Shown piece by piece: positions 31,064 through 36,875 of a DNA stretch of 46,711 bases. The notes beneath the pieces were generated by a model. The model saw nothing but the letters and a program-made list of their open reading frames with translations, was not told the DNA's origin and searched no databases. The stretch comes from Methanobacteriota archaeon (lineage in GTDB: Archaea > Thermoplasmatota > Poseidoniia > Poseidoniales > Thalassarchaeaceae): assembly GCA_002722735.1 (NCBI GenBank), contig PBMR01000007.1, positions 35,143 through 81,853 of the forward strand, read 5' to 3'. Numbering within the stretch: position 1 is the first letter of the stretch; each line of letters opens with the position of its first letter. The position numbers and the translations under genes are program-made.

Positions 31064-31936
31064 ATGGCACCCCAAATCGAAGCCTCTGCACCAGTCAGAG
31101 TGGATCTCGCTGGGGGCTGGACCGATGTGGGCCCGTACTCCGATGACTTCGGCGGCGAGGTGGTTAACTTCGCAATCAATCGTTACGTACGTGTAACAGG
31201 AAACCCCGGCAGTGAAACGGGGGACTTTGAGAGCAACTTCGAGATTCCTCGGGGATCTGGCTTAGGGACCAGTAGCGCGATGAACGTCGCTATGGCCGCC
31301 ATAATGTCATGTGGCGAGGACAAGCCTCCGGAGGAGTTGGCCGAGATTGCTTTCCAGATGGAGACTAATGGGGGCAATTTCTGTGGCAGGCAGGACCAAT
31401 GGGCCTCGGCCAGGGGTGGGTTCAACCACCTGCTCTTCTTTGGGGACTCAGTCGAGATAATGCCCTTCGAGCCGATGCGATCAGCTAAGATTTGGCTGCG
31501 TAAGCACCTGCTTGTCGTGTATTCTGGAACCAGCCGATGCTCCGGTGACATCCAGGACTCCGTTTGGGTGGATTACGCGAAGGGCAATCCAACAGTCATC
31601 GAAGGCCTTCACAAGATTCGTGCCGCGGCACGTCCGATGGCCAATGGCCTGCAGCAGGACCGCAGAAATCTCGTAGTCCAGTCCTTCAAGGATGTCTGCG
31701 AGGGGGTCGACATGATCGACACCTCCTTGCACGACCCCTTCAGAGAGGTGGTGGAGCCACTACTCGAGAGTGGCTCCATAGCTGCCTGGAAAGCGCTGGG
31801 GGCAGGTGGTGGGGGATGTGCTGCCCTTCTCTGTTCCCCCTCGGGTAGAGACGATACCATTGCCTCGGTTGAGGGGGCCGGCTGGGAACTCATCGAGTGG
31901 GATTACGACGGCGAGGGCGTGCGAATTGCCCATTGA
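31064..31936 (+). CDS. GHMP sugar kinase, heptose/fucose kinase-like (HddA group)
   Basis: 290 aa. The N-terminal APVRVDLAGGWTDVGPY and GGEVVNFAIN match the substrate region of D-glycero-D-manno-heptose 7-phosphate kinase and fucokinase-type GHMP enzymes; GSGLGTSSAMNVAM is the ATP-binding motif and GAGGGGCAALL the C-terminal glycine motif. It is shorter than bacterial HddA (about 330-340 aa). It would phosphorylate a sugar or sugar phosphate for nucleotide-sugar synthesis or catabolism; no partner nucleotidyltransferase is nearby, so the substrate is open. Confidence 0.88.
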   Translation: MAPQIEASAPVRVDLAGGWTDVGPYSDDFGGEVVNFAINRYVRVTGNPGSETGDFESNFEIPRGSGLGTSSAMNVAMAAIMSCGEDKPPEELAEIAFQMETNGGNFCGRQDQWASARGGFNHLLFFGDSVEIMPFEPMRSAKIWLRKHLLVVYSGTSRCSGDIQDSVWVDYAKGNPTVIEGLHKIRAAARPMANGLQQDRRNLVVQSFKDVCEGVDMIDTSLHDPFREVVEPLLESGSIAAWKALGAGGGGCAALLCSPSGRDDTIASVEGAGWELIEWDYDGEGVRIAH

Positions 31937-31982: not shown

Positions 31983-34900
31983 ATGAGCGGACGCCGTGTT
32001 CTCCTCGCTTCCTTCTTGGTGCTCACACTAGTCGCGCCGCTCTCCGCCTCCTCCATCGCACCCGAGTCGAACGAGAGGGGTGGCTACGATGCCGATGGCG
32101 AGTGGGCAGTTAGCGTGGAGTCTGAGATCCATGCCTCATGGTGGATGCACTGGAGCAGGGACAAAGACTCAAACTCCCTAGACGATCGCCTCGAGTGGCT
32201 GCTCGAGCAGCCCGCGGAGGTTCAGAAGGACTGGTGGCGACGTGCGCCTGCAGGCAGCGCTAGGGTCTTCGTGGACTACGACCACCATCCCTCCGACGCA
32301 GACGTAAGGGCAATCGAGAATATGGGGGCCGAGGTCACTTTCAGGGCGAAGTACCTAGACACCGTGGCAGCGACAGTGCCCTTCGAGATCCTCCTCGATC
32401 CCGAGGGCGTGCGCGCTCTACCTGGCGTGGTGATGGTCGAGGATCTGGGCCTGGCTGAGCCCGACATGCACGAGGCGGTTCCCACGATGGGTGTCGATGA
32501 CGTCTGGATGGATCTCGGTCTGGATGGGACGGGCTCCGTGATTGCGGTCCTAGATACGGGAATCAGGGGTGACCACGAGGGCCTCAACGACATGGATGAC
32601 GACCCCTTCACCTGCCTAGACGACCCTCCTGACCCACTCGACCCTGACCCGGGGCCGATACCGAGGGACTGCGACCCGAAGATCATCGCGTTCTACGATG
32701 CTGTCTTCACCGACGAGGAGCAGGACCCGTCTACTTCCTACGACTCCAGCACCCATGGGTCCCACGTCGCGGGCATCGCCGCTGGCACCGGAGGCGGCCA
32801 GACCGACCCCGAGAGCGGCCTACGCTACGTCGGAGCCGCTCCCGGAGCCTACCTGATCAATATCCTCGCCTGCTGCGACGGCGACATAGAGGATGTCATA
32901 GAGGGCGCCCAGTGGGCCATTGACAACAGGGACAAGTACGGCATTGACATCGTAACCTCCTCCCTGGGCGAGCAGCAGTTCGAGATCCACGTCGACAACG
33001 ACGGAAACTCCGCCTGGAGCCGACAGATGGACATGGTGGTCGAGGCTGGCATCATCACCACCCTCTCTGCCGGCAACGAATTCGGAGGCGCTACCTTCGT
33101 CGGCTGCAATACCATAGACAGCCCCGGCGACGCGCGCCTGCCGATTACGGTGGCGAGCCTGGACAAGGACCTCAGCCTCGCTATCTACAGCAGTCGCGGG
33201 TACACCTCGGACCTCCGCGTCAAGCCGGACGTCGCCACCGTCGGCTCCAGCATCATGGCGCCCGACGCTGCCACCCAGGACGGCTATACAAGCAAGTCCG
33301 GCACCAGCATGGCAACCCCTCTGATGGCTGGCATTGCCGCCCTCATGGTCCAGGCCAATCCAGACCTCACTCCCTCCGAGTTGAAGGCCATCGTCTCCGA
33401 CAAGGCGATCGAGCGGGAGATCTCCCTGTTTGGGGATGCGGGCCTCAATGACTGCAGTCTGCTGGAGACGAGGCCAGACAACGAGTTCGGATACGGTCAG
33501 GCCGACCCCATTGCCTTCGTTGAGGCCGCTGGGAGCATTGACCGGTCCCTGAATGTCTCCATGGAGATCCACTCGATGGCTGAGGTACTCAACCAGAGCT
33601 ACCTATCGGGTACCGCCTCGGGGGCGTCCCCCGGTCAGGGCGAGGTACAGATCCGCGTCGGTGGTAGCCAGTGGAAGACAGCGGAAGACTCCTCCCCGTT
33701 GGGCGACTGGGCTCAGTGGGGGATCAAGCTGGACCCACACAACGAGTCTGGAAACACGACCATCTACGCACGTCTGATTATCGATGACGACCATATTTCT
33801 CCCGTGGATGCCCGTAGGGTCATCCTTCTGGATATGCAAGCATCGGCGGAAGCAACCGGTTCGAGCAACTCGAGAATTCTGATTGTCGGGCTGTCGCTAA
33901 TCTTACTGCCACTGTTAGCATACGTGCTCTACAACAGAGAGCAACTTGTTGAGGAGTGGTTTGACGGACAGAGCCTGACTGAGAACAGACTCAGAAGGAT
34001 GGTTTCGCTCTGCGTCCTCTACTTCGCCCAAGGCCTCCCATGGGGGTTCGTGACTGTCGCCTTCGTATCATATCTCTCGGACAACGGGTTTACCCCTCAA
34101 GAGCTTGGTACGTTGCTCGCTACCGTCGCCTTGCCTTGGACCTTCAAGTGGATTTGGGGCCCCGTCATCGACACGTTGAGCCTACCGCAATTCGGTACCC
34201 GCAGACTGTGGATCTTATTCGCCCAGTTTGGAATGGCCGTCACAATAGGGACCCTTCTATTTGTCCCGGACTTGACGGGTCATATTGACCTAGTGATCAA
34301 GCTAATGTTCGTGCACAATATTTTCGCTTCTCTGCAGGACGTCAGCACCGACGCCCTCGCAGTGGATGTTCTTCGGGATGACGAGGTCTCGAAGGCGAAT
34401 GGGTACATGTTCGCGTCCAAGCGAGGAGGCATGATAGTCGGGGGCGCGGTTCTTGGTGGATTCGCCAAGACGATTGGCATCAAGGGGATGCTCTCCATCC
34501 AACTGCCTATCCTCCTTCTGATTATGGTTCTTCCAATGTTCCTGTACGAGAAGCCAGGCACCCGCCTCTTCCCATGGTCAAGGCCCTCTGATCAAGATTC
34601 ATTAGATTCTGGATCCACGGATTCTTACGGGGAATCTGAATTTGAAGTGGATCAGATGCTTTACTGGGAGGAGCCAGAGGAGTCCAGGTGGTGGGCGGCT
34701 CGGGCGGTGGGTAGGTCAACGTTTGACGAAAGGATCCCACTAGCAGCCCTGCTGACTATCGTATCCCTTGCCATCTTTGTCGCCGGACTGATCTTCGCGA
34801 TTTTTTCAGTTGACCTGACCGTTCCACTATACACGACAGCAAAGAAGATTGCATTCTTCGGAATCGTTCTGGCCATTTTAACTGCCTTTGTCGCTAGAGT

Positions 34901-35678
34901 TGTCTCAATACCCCGAGTGGTGAACCCATTCTCGATATTGCCCCAAGGTTCTCGTAGGACTCTAGCACAGACAAGCTTCAATCTCACCAAGGCATTCCAC
35001 TTGAGATCCTCTTTCATGCTGATCTTCTTGTGCCTCTTGTCCGAACTGTACCTTTTCATAGACCCAATCGTGATTGACATATTCATCAATCGAGCAGGGT
35101 GGGAGCAGGAGGATTACAATGTCATTGTTGGCGGTATCGTCATCCTCGCAATCATGACCGGCCAGATTGCAGGGGGCATGCTGGGGGAGAAGTTCGGAGT
35201 CAGAAGGGTGGCAATGATCGGCTTCACATGTCTTGCTGTGTGCAATGGAATGCTGGCGGTCATGGAGCCATTCTGGACCAATACGGTGGTAATGACGACA
35301 TATCTGATTATCCGGGGCCTAGTCAATGGGGTGGCTTGGATATGCGTGATTGCGGTCTGCATGAAGATGACATGGAGCAAGGTCGGGGGGACTCAATTCA
35401 CCGCCTACATGTCCATGTTCAACCTCTCGGGGGTAATGGCATACACCTTCACTGGCAGGATGCTGGAGATATTCGACAATGATTACAGCACTACGATATA
35501 CGTGGGGGCAGCACTCACCATGTTCACCGTTTTCTTCCTAGTTTTCATCGATCCAGAAGAGTGCAACAGAGTTCTCGAGGAGAAGGATGCCTTGGACGGT
35601 GTCCTTCTGGACGATTTGGGAGAGTCGGGATGGTGGTCCGATGAAGAAGGAGGCGGTGAGCCTGTCGCAGCTTCGTGA
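31983..35678 (+). CDS. S8 subtilisin-like protease fused to AmpG-like MFS permease
   Basis: 1231 aa in one uninterrupted frame from ATG 31983. Order: signal peptide (about 1-24); pro-region; subtilase domain with Asp191 (VLDTGI), His258 (THGSHVAG) and Ser442 (GTSMATP); an Asp/Pro-rich insertion between Asp191 and His258; a beta-sandwich (about 520-625); one transmembrane helix (about 630-650); a charged linker; then a 12-helix MFS permease (about 667-1210) that opens with YFAQGLPWGF and resembles the AmpG/PAT group. The topology is consistent: protease outside, one crossing, then the permease begins inside. Base composition falls from GC-rich in the protease to lower GC in the permease. Alternative: two genes joined by loss of a stop codon, which would need a sequencing check. 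Confidence 0.85.
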   Translation: MSGRRVLLASFLVLTLVAPLSASSIAPESNERGGYDADGEWAVSVESEIHASWWMHWSRDKDSNSLDDRLEWLLEQPAEVQKDWWRRAPAGSARVFVDYDHHPSDADVRAIENMGAEVTFRAKYLDTVAATVPFEILLDPEGVRALPGVVMVEDLGLAEPDMHEAVPTMGVDDVWMDLGLDGTGSVIAVLDTGIRGDHEGLNDMDDDPFTCLDDPPDPLDPDPGPIPRDCDPKIIAFYDAVFTDEEQDPSTSYDSSTHGSHVAGIAAGTGGGQTDPESGLRYVGAAPGAYLINILACCDGDIEDVIEGAQWAIDNRDKYGIDIVTSSLGEQQFEIHVDNDGNSAWSRQMDMVVEAGIITTLSAGNEFGGATFVGCNTIDSPGDARLPITVASLDKDLSLAIYSSRGYTSDLRVKPDVATVGSSIMAPDAATQDGYTSKSGTSMATPLMAGIAALMVQANPDLTPSELKAIVSDKAIEREISLFGDAGLNDCSLLETRPDNEFGYGQADPIAFVEAAGSIDRSLNVSMEIHSMAEVLNQSYLSGTASGASPGQGEVQIRVGGSQWKTAEDSSPLGDWAQWGIKLDPHNESGNTTIYARLIIDDDHISPVDARRVILLDMQASAEATGSSNSRILIVGLSLILLPLLAYVLYNREQLVEEWFDGQSLTENRLRRMVSLCVLYFAQGLPWGFVTVAFVSYLSDNGFTPQELGTLLATVALPWTFKWIWGPVIDTLSLPQFGTRRLWILFAQFGMAVTIGTLLFVPDLTGHIDLVIKLMFVHNIFASLQDVSTDALAVDVLRDDEVSKANGYMFASKRGGMIVGGAVLGGFAKTIGIKGMLSIQLPILLLIMVLPMFLYEKPGTRLFPWSRPSDQDSLDSGSTDSYGESEFEVDQMLYWEEPEESRWWAARAVGRSTFDERIPLAALLTIVSLAIFVAGLIFAIFSVDLTVPLYTTAKKIAFFGIVLAILTAFVARVVSIPRVVNPFSILPQGSRRTLAQTSFNLTKAFHLRSSFMLIFLCLLSELYLFIDPIVIDIFINRAGWEQEDYNVIVGGIVILAIMTGQIAGGMLGEKFGVRRVAMIGFTCLAVCNGMLAVMEPFWTNTVVMTTYLIIRGLVNGVAWICVIAVCMKMTWSKVGGTQFTAYMSMFNLSGVMAYTFTGRMLEIFDNDYSTTIYVGAALTMFTVFFLVFIDPEECNRVLEEKDALDGVLLDDLGESGWWSDEEGGGEPVAAS

Positions 35679-35928
35679 GATAATTCAAGGGACTGAGACC
35701 GACTTCCTGGTCTTCACCCAGACCAACTGCCCCTACTGCTCACTTGCCTTCAGGGTCCTCGAATCCAAAGAGCTGACCTTCACCGATTTCAATCTCGATA
35801 ATCACGATGGACTCAGGCAAGAGGTGGTCAGTCAGACAGGACATCGAACAGCTCCTGTAGTGTTCGACTTGAGGGGCGAAGAGCCGGTGTTCATAGGGGG
35901 CTCGGACAACCTTCTCGATTACCTCTAG
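35641..35928 (+). CDS. Glutaredoxin-like thiol-disulfide protein
   Basis: 95 aa from ATG 35641, which overlaps the end of the fusion gene by 38 nt; GTG 35656 is another possible start. Thioredoxin fold with the redox motif CPYC (Cys30-Cys33), cis-Pro in TAPVVF and the C-terminal glutathione-site pattern GGSDNLLDYL. Reduces disulfides with glutathione or another low-molecular thiol. Its stop overlaps the stop of the lipoprotein gene on the other strand by 4 nt. Confidence 0.9.
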   Translation: MKKEAVSLSQLREIIQGTETDFLVFTQTNCPYCSLAFRVLESKELTFTDFNLDNHDGLRQEVVSQTGHRTAPVVFDLRGEEPVFIGGSDNLLDYL

Positions 35929-36875
35929 AGGCTCCACGTCTCGGTGATGCCGCCCGCAATAATGACTCGCAGGAATGCAGTGCCGGTGAATGTCGCTGTC
36001 AGGGTGTACTCTCCCGTGGGGTAGGGAATCGTGCCCAAAGTACCCATCTCGCTTGCCCCGGGCCCCCAAATTCGCTCCAGAGCAGATACGGATAGGTGAT
36101 CCCTGAGGGTGAGTGAGATGGTGGAGGAGCCGCTGCCGCACTCTGCGTCAATGAAGTAGACCATCTCGTCCCACTCGCCATCACTAGGGTGGTCACTGAC
36201 GAGGAATGTGTCACGGAACTCCACGTCTATGCCGGGGTCCTCCCATGTATCGCTAAACAGGTCCCCTCCCCTGACGAAGTAGACGTCCCCGGTATGCCCA
36301 GAACCATGGTCGGCCACCATCATCCTGAGTTGCTCCGTTCCCGAGGCATCCGTCCAGATGAAGGAGGAGAGGTAGCCGACCCCGCTGTCGTACACATAAT
36401 CCAACCGCGAGCCGTCGGACGTGGCACCGGCAATGATGGCCGTGCCACCCGTGACCCCCGTCACCGATGCGACCCACTCAGTGGAGAATAGTGTGAAGCC
36501 CCATGACCCCCCCTCCTCTATAGGGAATGACAACACTGGCTGGGCCACCCCGTTCTCGAAGGCGCTCAGGTCAGAGTGCATGACTCTTCCGAGGAATGGA
36601 TTGTGGTTGAGGACGGAGTGTCGTCTGGCCTCAGTCAGGCTCGAGATGGCCAACATGTAGGCCGCACCACTCTCTTCACTATCGCTCGCAACGACGAGCC
36701 TAGCGGTATCGTCGCTGTAGTCTGGAGTCGAGAAAGTGTAGAGCCACCAGTCCCCAACCTGCCAGGTCGGGACGTCAATGGAATCGGAACCAATCTCGCC
36801 ATCCGAGTCCGCGCAGCCCGCCATGCTCGCCACGAGCACGAGCATCGCCAGGGCCAGTGCCGGGACTGAGCGCAT
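35925..36875 (-). CDS. Lipoprotein of unknown function
   Basis: 316 aa with a lipobox (LVASMAGC, Cys21) after a short hydrophobic signal, so probably membrane-anchored outside the cell. The mature part is acidic, rich in beta-strand pattern, and starts with VGDWWLYTF, a phrase common in secreted archaeal proteins. No enzyme motif is visible. Two halves look weakly similar in pattern but not clearly repeated. It converges with the glutaredoxin gene and follows hppA by 49 nt on the same strand. Confidence 0.8.
   Translation of the reverse strand: MRSVPALALAMLVLVASMAGCADSDGEIGSDSIDVPTWQVGDWWLYTFSTPDYSDDTARLVVASDSEESGAAYMLAISSLTEARRHSVLNHNPFLGRVMHSDLSAFENGVAQPVLSFPIEEGGSWGFTLFSTEWVASVTGVTGGTAIIAGATSDGSRLDYVYDSGVGYLSSFIWTDASGTEQLRMMVADHGSGHTGDVYFVRGGDLFSDTWEDPGIDVEFRDTFLVSDHPSDGEWDEMVYFIDAECGSGSSTISLTLRDHLSVSALERIWGPGASEMGTLGTIPYPTGEYTLTATFTGTAFLRVIIAGGITETWSL

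Follow-up and report, generated by a model that had tools for sequence, protein, structure and literature searches.

A single gene at positions 31983–35678 (plus strand) of the window, a stretch of 46,711 nucleotides (nt) from contig PBMR01000007.1 (assembly GCA_002722735.1; genome of 1.40 Mb in 20 contigs) of an archaeon of the family Thalassarchaeaceae (f1; order Poseidoniales), most likely encodes one chimeric surface protein, in which a predicted secreted subtilase and a beta-sandwich are connected by one helix to an AmpG-fold permease of the major facilitator superfamily (MFS). In a class-wide family, this permease carries one of at least five interchangeable outer modules, which in the window gene is the subtilase. 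As the best explanation of this layout we consider an importer whose outer head, catalytic or capturing, would supply the permease; its probability is estimated at about 0.5.

The gene forms a single open frame from ATG to TGA (1231 codons, 1231 amino acids (aa)). An in-frame GTG at 31806 would extend the protein to 1290 aa, but it overlaps the upstream GHMP-kinase gene. A signal peptide of about 23 aa (MSGRRVLLASFLVLTLVAPLSAS; 31983..32051) with a putative cleavage site is predicted from hydropathy and from reading of the N-terminus (hydrophobic stretch at aa 7–25). The following stretch of aa 85–160 (32235..32462) is a probable subtilase propeptide, judged by its position just before the Pfam S8 match and by the usual anatomy of subtilases; none of the propeptide models matched it. 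The catalytic domain (aa 182–505, 32526..33497) belongs to family S8: the match to Peptidase_S8 (PF00082) covers profile positions 1–288 of 288 with an E-value of 4.4e-45 and 154.7 bits, above the curated cut-off of 21.8. A phmmer search retrieved 9ues/3afg (E about 1e-36), and the triad motifs are intact (D191, H258, and S442, with the oxyanion N365). The ectodomain is a putative active protease. The beta-sandwich (aa 520–620, 33540..33842) was recognized by strands in the AlphaFold model (model residues 497–592, where model residue plus 27 gives the protein position). A lone hydrophobic helix, TM0 (33864..33932), forms the joint between ectodomain and permease; it was located at aa 632–650 by hydropathy (2.56) and at aa 628–650 in the model. 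For the permease (aa 661–1231, 33963..35675), Pfam gave a match to MFS_1 that starts at aa 676 (90.9 bits, cut-off 33.4; E 1e-25). Hydropathy, Pfam, motifs, and the AlphaFold model agree with the architecture described in the first-pass annotation, and the model (mean predicted local distance difference test score (pLDDT) 61.0; low in the protease part, mostly 70–90 in the permease) displays strands, joining helix, and permease helices, including two extra ones, in that order. The orientation proposed there, with the protease outside, one crossing, and the permease N-terminus inside, was accepted as the probable one because of the signal peptide, the single crossing, and the rule that MFS permeases have their N-terminus inside.

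The fusion of subtilase and permease in one frame is real beyond reasonable doubt, and the first-pass claim of one uninterrupted polypeptide was borne out by its relatives. With the whole protein as a query, 60 of 60 relatives matched somewhere, which is no count of fusions because many of these matches represent one half or paralogues. The subtilase part alone (E 1e-100 or better) matched 89 of 148 Thalassarchaeaceae genomes, in 69 cases within frames of fused length (1014–1350 aa), in 13 within frames of 663–726 aa corresponding to the subtilase alone (in one of them, G235, a TAG lies inside the match), and in seven as short or cut pieces. Frame length alone is no proof of a permease; by profile, 35 of the genomes of the family whose ORFs were retrieved contained S8 together with a near-complete permease. 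The case that relatives always encode the halves separately was hence not found. In the outer lineage f3, by inference Marine Group III (MGIII), the permease was matched in 13 of 21 genomes (11 of g23, two of g25), and all 11 matching g23 genomes carry S8 fusions with a subtilase identity of 51–55%. Of the 98 full-length rows of fused subtilase orthologues (including duplicate loci), 96 have all four triad motifs, and the other two lack only the exact His motif string. In G209 and G218, the fusion was seen on two contigs each (L051/L052 and L072/L078). An assembly or frameshift artefact was rejected, as the frame is found fused in many genomes; the 69 genomes with the subtilase in frames of fused length and the selection acting on both halves make chance or misassembly unlikely.

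Both halves are under purifying selection, with a ratio of nonsynonymous to synonymous substitutions (dN/dS; NG86 method, window gene versus L035) of 0.082 in the subtilase part, taken from aa 216 on, and 0.107 in the permease; the value for the junction (aa 619–660) was 0.337. The junction, inspected by eye, occurs in two types among the Thalassarchaeaceae fusions, since the window clade has a helix similar to the one in the standalone g4 subtilase, followed by a short linker, whereas the other fusions display the helix and long linker of the permeases with module X (see below). The difference in base composition between the halves, also pointed out earlier, holds for the window gene (GC content 0.624 in the protease versus 0.524 in the permease; GC at third codon positions (GC3) 0.782 versus 0.641) but not as a general trait. 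In all six relatives computed, the GC difference was smaller and GC3 was higher in the permease half, so that the contrast does not characterize the fusion in general. These six relatives also lend no support to base composition as evidence of recent joining.

The permease is nearest to AmpG by fold and sequence, but the AmpG family cut-offs were not reached, and it is therefore called AmpG-like, as in the first-pass annotation. In a Foldseek search, AmpG entries took ranks 1 to 3 (top entry 9j9z, E 1.5e-12), with other MFS families matching too, and phmmer retrieved the AmpG 9c3f (E 1.4e-9). The scores for the AmpG families were 112 versus 350 bits (TIGR00901), 63.4 versus 656 bits (NF008867), and 49.1 versus 756 bits (NF008238). 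Seven PDB sequences matched at E 0.001 or better; all were AmpG or SLC33A1 and none was PepT, so that no sequence kinship to the proton-dependent oligopeptide transporters (POT/PepT) was found among them. The QGLP and QD motifs align with those of AmpG (presumably TC 2.A.1.25). G24 and Q125 are invariant in the 26 rows of alignment A1 and correspond to the glycine of transmembrane helix 1 and the glutamine of helix 4 of Pseudomonas aeruginosa AmpG (G29 and Q131, numbers mapped by motif). The Q131 substitutions of AmpG listed in a table of PMC5154545 kept a minimal inhibitory concentration of 1024. Apart from its scores below the AmpG cut-off, the window permease differs from AmpG in being archaeal and in having an N-terminal ectodomain and an extra helix. 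To our knowledge, a role in murein metabolism is not to be expected in this archaeon. Likeness to SLC33A1/Acatn was also detected, as the Pfam family Acatn (PF13000) reached 31.4 bits (cut-off 23.7), but only over profile positions 5–87 of 546, and SLC33A1 sequences in the PDB matched at E about 4e-6; this match is weaker than that to AmpG, and we know of no ectodomain module in the SLC33A1/Acatn family.

The permease was followed through 318 genomes of the order (209 matches at E 1e-30) and 339 of the class (222 matches at E 1e-20). Among the 159 of these 222 genomes with a near-complete permease open reading frame (ORF), a module was assignable in 154: S8 in 46, X in 42, Y in 42, cupredoxin in 12, and an M28 peptidase in 12. 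In the remaining five the ORF runs to the contig end; these include the short naked paralogue (G058, L105). The N-terminal parts of 210 ORFs with at least 150 aa before the permease (loci partly duplicate) fell into five clusters, with none left over. Module X comprises a signal peptide and a cysteine-rich beta-domain, module Y a lipobox domain. The cupredoxin module scored 49.1 bits with PF00127 (plastocyanin; cut-off 21.2) and the M28 module 64.8 bits with PF04389 (cut-off 21.3), one member of each being scanned; of 12 distinct M28 rows, 11 have the full set of ligand motifs. Peptidases account for two of the five modules (S8 and M28). With at least four other modules found in the place of the protease, "protease plus importer" is too narrow a definition of the device. 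For X, the best structural match of the model (mean pLDDT 59.7), and the sole one at E 0.001 or better, was the CBM4 domain 1gu3 (E 6.8e-4, TM-score 0.33), which is only a hint at carbohydrate binding. A common origin of the modules was considered, but no supported profile link was found among X, Y, cupredoxin, and S8; the weak cross-hits between cupredoxin and M28 (E 6e-5 to 4e-4) may stem from shared signal or linker stretches.

Permeases lacking an ectodomain occur as a paralogue of about 450 aa (L103, L104, L105) in some genomes of family f2 (probably Poseidoniaceae, and so called here) and as relatives in marine Phycisphaerae (L086, L087, L089), which are 47–49% identical in the first half. 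The sequences of the latter hint at an old transfer between bacteria and these archaea. Their neighbours are of no help for the function, because they differ between the two loci scanned (ApbE in L086, a glycosyltransferase in L089). The central permease insertion with its two extra helices (34632..34937; model helices 893–914 and 921–946) is present in the S8 and X permeases of the Thalassarchaeaceae, whereas the Poseidoniaceae and Phycisphaerae rows of alignment A1 are devoid of it. The g23 permease sequence seems to have a central insertion as well.

Repeated exchange of modules on the permease is very probable. At least 11 module changes are required on a tree of 63 permease representatives, where five classes could be accommodated with as few as 4; a FastTree of 153 permease rows gave 10. 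Long branches may meet in the permease tree, so the exact exchange events are uncertain. Trees uniting a module in one clade were rejected for the Thalassarchaeaceae S8 forms (p 2e-8), cupredoxin (p 7e-7), and X (p 5e-6), and weakly for M28 (p 0.029). Within the Thalassarchaeaceae, the X permeases of g4 and g18 are nested within the S8 forms. The permeases of two genera of this family, g7 (L102, L218) and g3 (L192, L195, L203, L208–L210), group with those of the Poseidoniaceae, which reflects either old lineages or gene transfer.

The neighbouring genes, counted in genomes with enough flanking sequence, locate this exchange. A GHMP sugar-kinase-like gene, separate from the polypeptide, precedes the window gene (31064..31936, plus strand; PF00288, 41.1 bits, cut-off 22.3), and a glutaredoxin-like gene with a CPYC motif overlaps its end (35641..35928, plus strand; PF00462, 47.8 bits, cut-off 22.9). 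In the Thalassarchaeaceae, a glutaredoxin gene follows within 500 nt in all 28 S8 and all 14 X genomes; the GHMP kinase lies no more than 400 nt upstream in 21 of 22 S8 and 13 of 13 X genomes. The S8 and X forms thus occupy the same locus, which indicates that the head was exchanged in place; non-orthologous loci behind the two forms were rejected owing to these shared neighbours. In the M28 genomes of the family, glutaredoxin is adjacent in six of six (on the opposite strand in the g3 loci) and the GHMP kinase in none of six. A lipoprotein-like ORF of 316 aa (35928–36875, minus strand), without a Pfam or NCBIfam match, lies downstream of the glutaredoxin gene in the window and in many S8 and X loci of the family.

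A subtilase orthologue persists in part of the genomes with an X-permease. A cross-table made by hand yielded 23 such Thalassarchaeaceae genomes, 11 of them with an S8 orthologue, which is full-length in nine; no genome in hand possesses both an S8-permease and an X-permease. In a subtilase tree built by a quick method, the standalone g4 and g18 copies are nested in clades of fused forms, close to g1 and g10, respectively. This position argues that the tether is dispensable, and together with the membrane helix at the end of the standalone g4 and g18 orthologues and the mutually unrelated profiles of the module classes it would suit a mere display function, in which holding secreted domains on a murein-less archaeal surface was selected, the permease has its own substrate, and the joining is incidental. 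We regard this as rather unlikely. Head loss is rare, given that a module was assignable in 154 of the 159 genomes and the other five ORFs reach a contig end; swaps repeatedly restore a head; the permease is under strong purifying selection; and the only naked relatives are the shorter paralogue and the Phycisphaerae proteins. An importer with a surface-tethered working head fits because of the two peptidase heads and the strict retention of a head.

In such an importer, the outer module would be the working head, which in the window protein would cut proteins or glycopeptides at the cell surface. The permease would take up the small products near their origin by inward transport, and less would be lost to the sea water. 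It is an even bet that both parts, head and permease, serve the same nutrient stream. For the class as a whole, we tentatively propose, with somewhat less confidence, chimeric importers whose interchangeable heads (subtilase, M28, cupredoxin, the weakly carbohydrate-binding-like beta-domain, and lipobox) each prepare or catch different dissolved organic matter, for example protein, glycopeptides, or cell-wall fragments, with in-place swaps retuning the diet.

Related principles are known from other systems. Secreted archaeal S8 subtilases (Tk-SP, 3afg) have a similar catalytic domain and triad, but the window protein continues into a permease. In some ABC (ATP-binding cassette) importers, the membrane subunit is fused to substrate-binding domains; these importers likewise combine an outer capture domain with the transporter in one chain but are ABC rather than MFS proteins and carry binders instead of enzymes. 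The mammalian transporters PepT1/PepT2 may serve as the closest functional analogue, in which a transporter of the MFS recruits a protease to where uptake takes place: according to PMC4597091, their outer domain binds trypsin, and a clustering of proteolysis at the transporter was proposed. That domain interrupts the MFS fold, and the protease bound by it is a separate protein, whereas in the window protein the protease itself is fused N-terminally.

Several observations weigh against a head that supplies the permease. AmpG itself carries disaccharide-peptides, and the permease remained below the TIGR00901 cut-off. The junction evolves faster than either half, the subtilase could cut its own linker, and the protease part of the AlphaFold model is of low confidence. 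All nine full-length subtilase orthologues in X-permease genomes of the Thalassarchaeaceae are encoded separately and have a membrane helix of their own at the C-terminus, which counts against a strict need for the tether. X and Y match no known family, and cupredoxin is no obvious feeding enzyme. Two g25 genomes (L279, G336:C52; L278, G334:C47) have a further, unassigned ectodomain on the permease that displays at most a weak likeness to X (hhalign E 0.077, probability 0.7). The synteny with glutaredoxin does not extend to the Poseidoniaceae (X 0/18, Y 0/34, cupredoxin 0/7, M28 1/5) or to g23 (0/11). PepT, as stated in PMC4597091, still transports without its outer domain.

The properties of the linker also bear on the question of whether the gene encodes a polyprotein, in which the subtilase or a signal-peptidase-like enzyme would cut the linker. 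The permease would then become free and the protease be secreted or anchored, so that the fusion couples expression only. Subtilases process themselves, and the linker length of 11–68 aa and the elevated dN/dS of the junction (0.337 versus 0.08–0.11) are compatible with cleavage; yet the X, Y, and cupredoxin heads, which have no protease of their own, keep the same layout, and the cytosolic linker of the window protein is short and inside. Such a polyprotein is improbable, and the halves probably stay together in the mature protein. The conserved glutaredoxin neighbour of the S8, X, and M28 genes in the Thalassarchaeaceae would suit yet another function, in which an SLC33A1-related permease moves a disulfide compound that glutaredoxin reduces and the heads release or bind thiol material. 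The Acatn match and the SLC33A1 chains among the seven PDB sequences point in the same direction, and export of oxidized glutathione by SLC33A1 is reported in PMC12889552. This is very improbable, however, as AmpG ranks above SLC33A1 by both sequence and fold, and the adjacency is confined, outside the Thalassarchaeaceae, to a single M28 genome of the Poseidoniaceae and is absent from g23. An importer with a catalytic or capture head is therefore preferred.

Two side observations concern other genes of the genome. The window contains two ORFs of equal length (979 aa) that are unrelated to each other. Elsewhere in the same genome (G000:C14:9125-12292), a frame of 1136 aa comprises several MFS stretches and perhaps represents two joined transporters.

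No report of this fusion was found in a literature search, although a supplementary listing (e.g., in PMC11237513) may exist. Outside the supplements, extracellular peptidases and transporters are mentioned in the survey of archaeal fusions (PMC11237513) and in that of Marine Group II (MGII) genomes (PMC6336850), but the fusion is not. Marine Group II archaea are described in PMC9723583 as abundant and uncultured and are thought to live on proteins and lipids; high transcript levels of subtilase and other peptidase genes in the order are reported there. The same layout may occur in other phyla, the searches conducted here having covered the 339 genomes of the class. A surface-tethered protease-importer encoded by one gene would make the uptake of the products of secreted peptidases testable with single proteins. 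Nature also supplies a series of S8, M28, cupredoxin, X, and Y variants with which the cargo of the permease could be probed. If the proposed function is true, these archaea possess a transporter family that evolves by swapping catalytic and binding heads.

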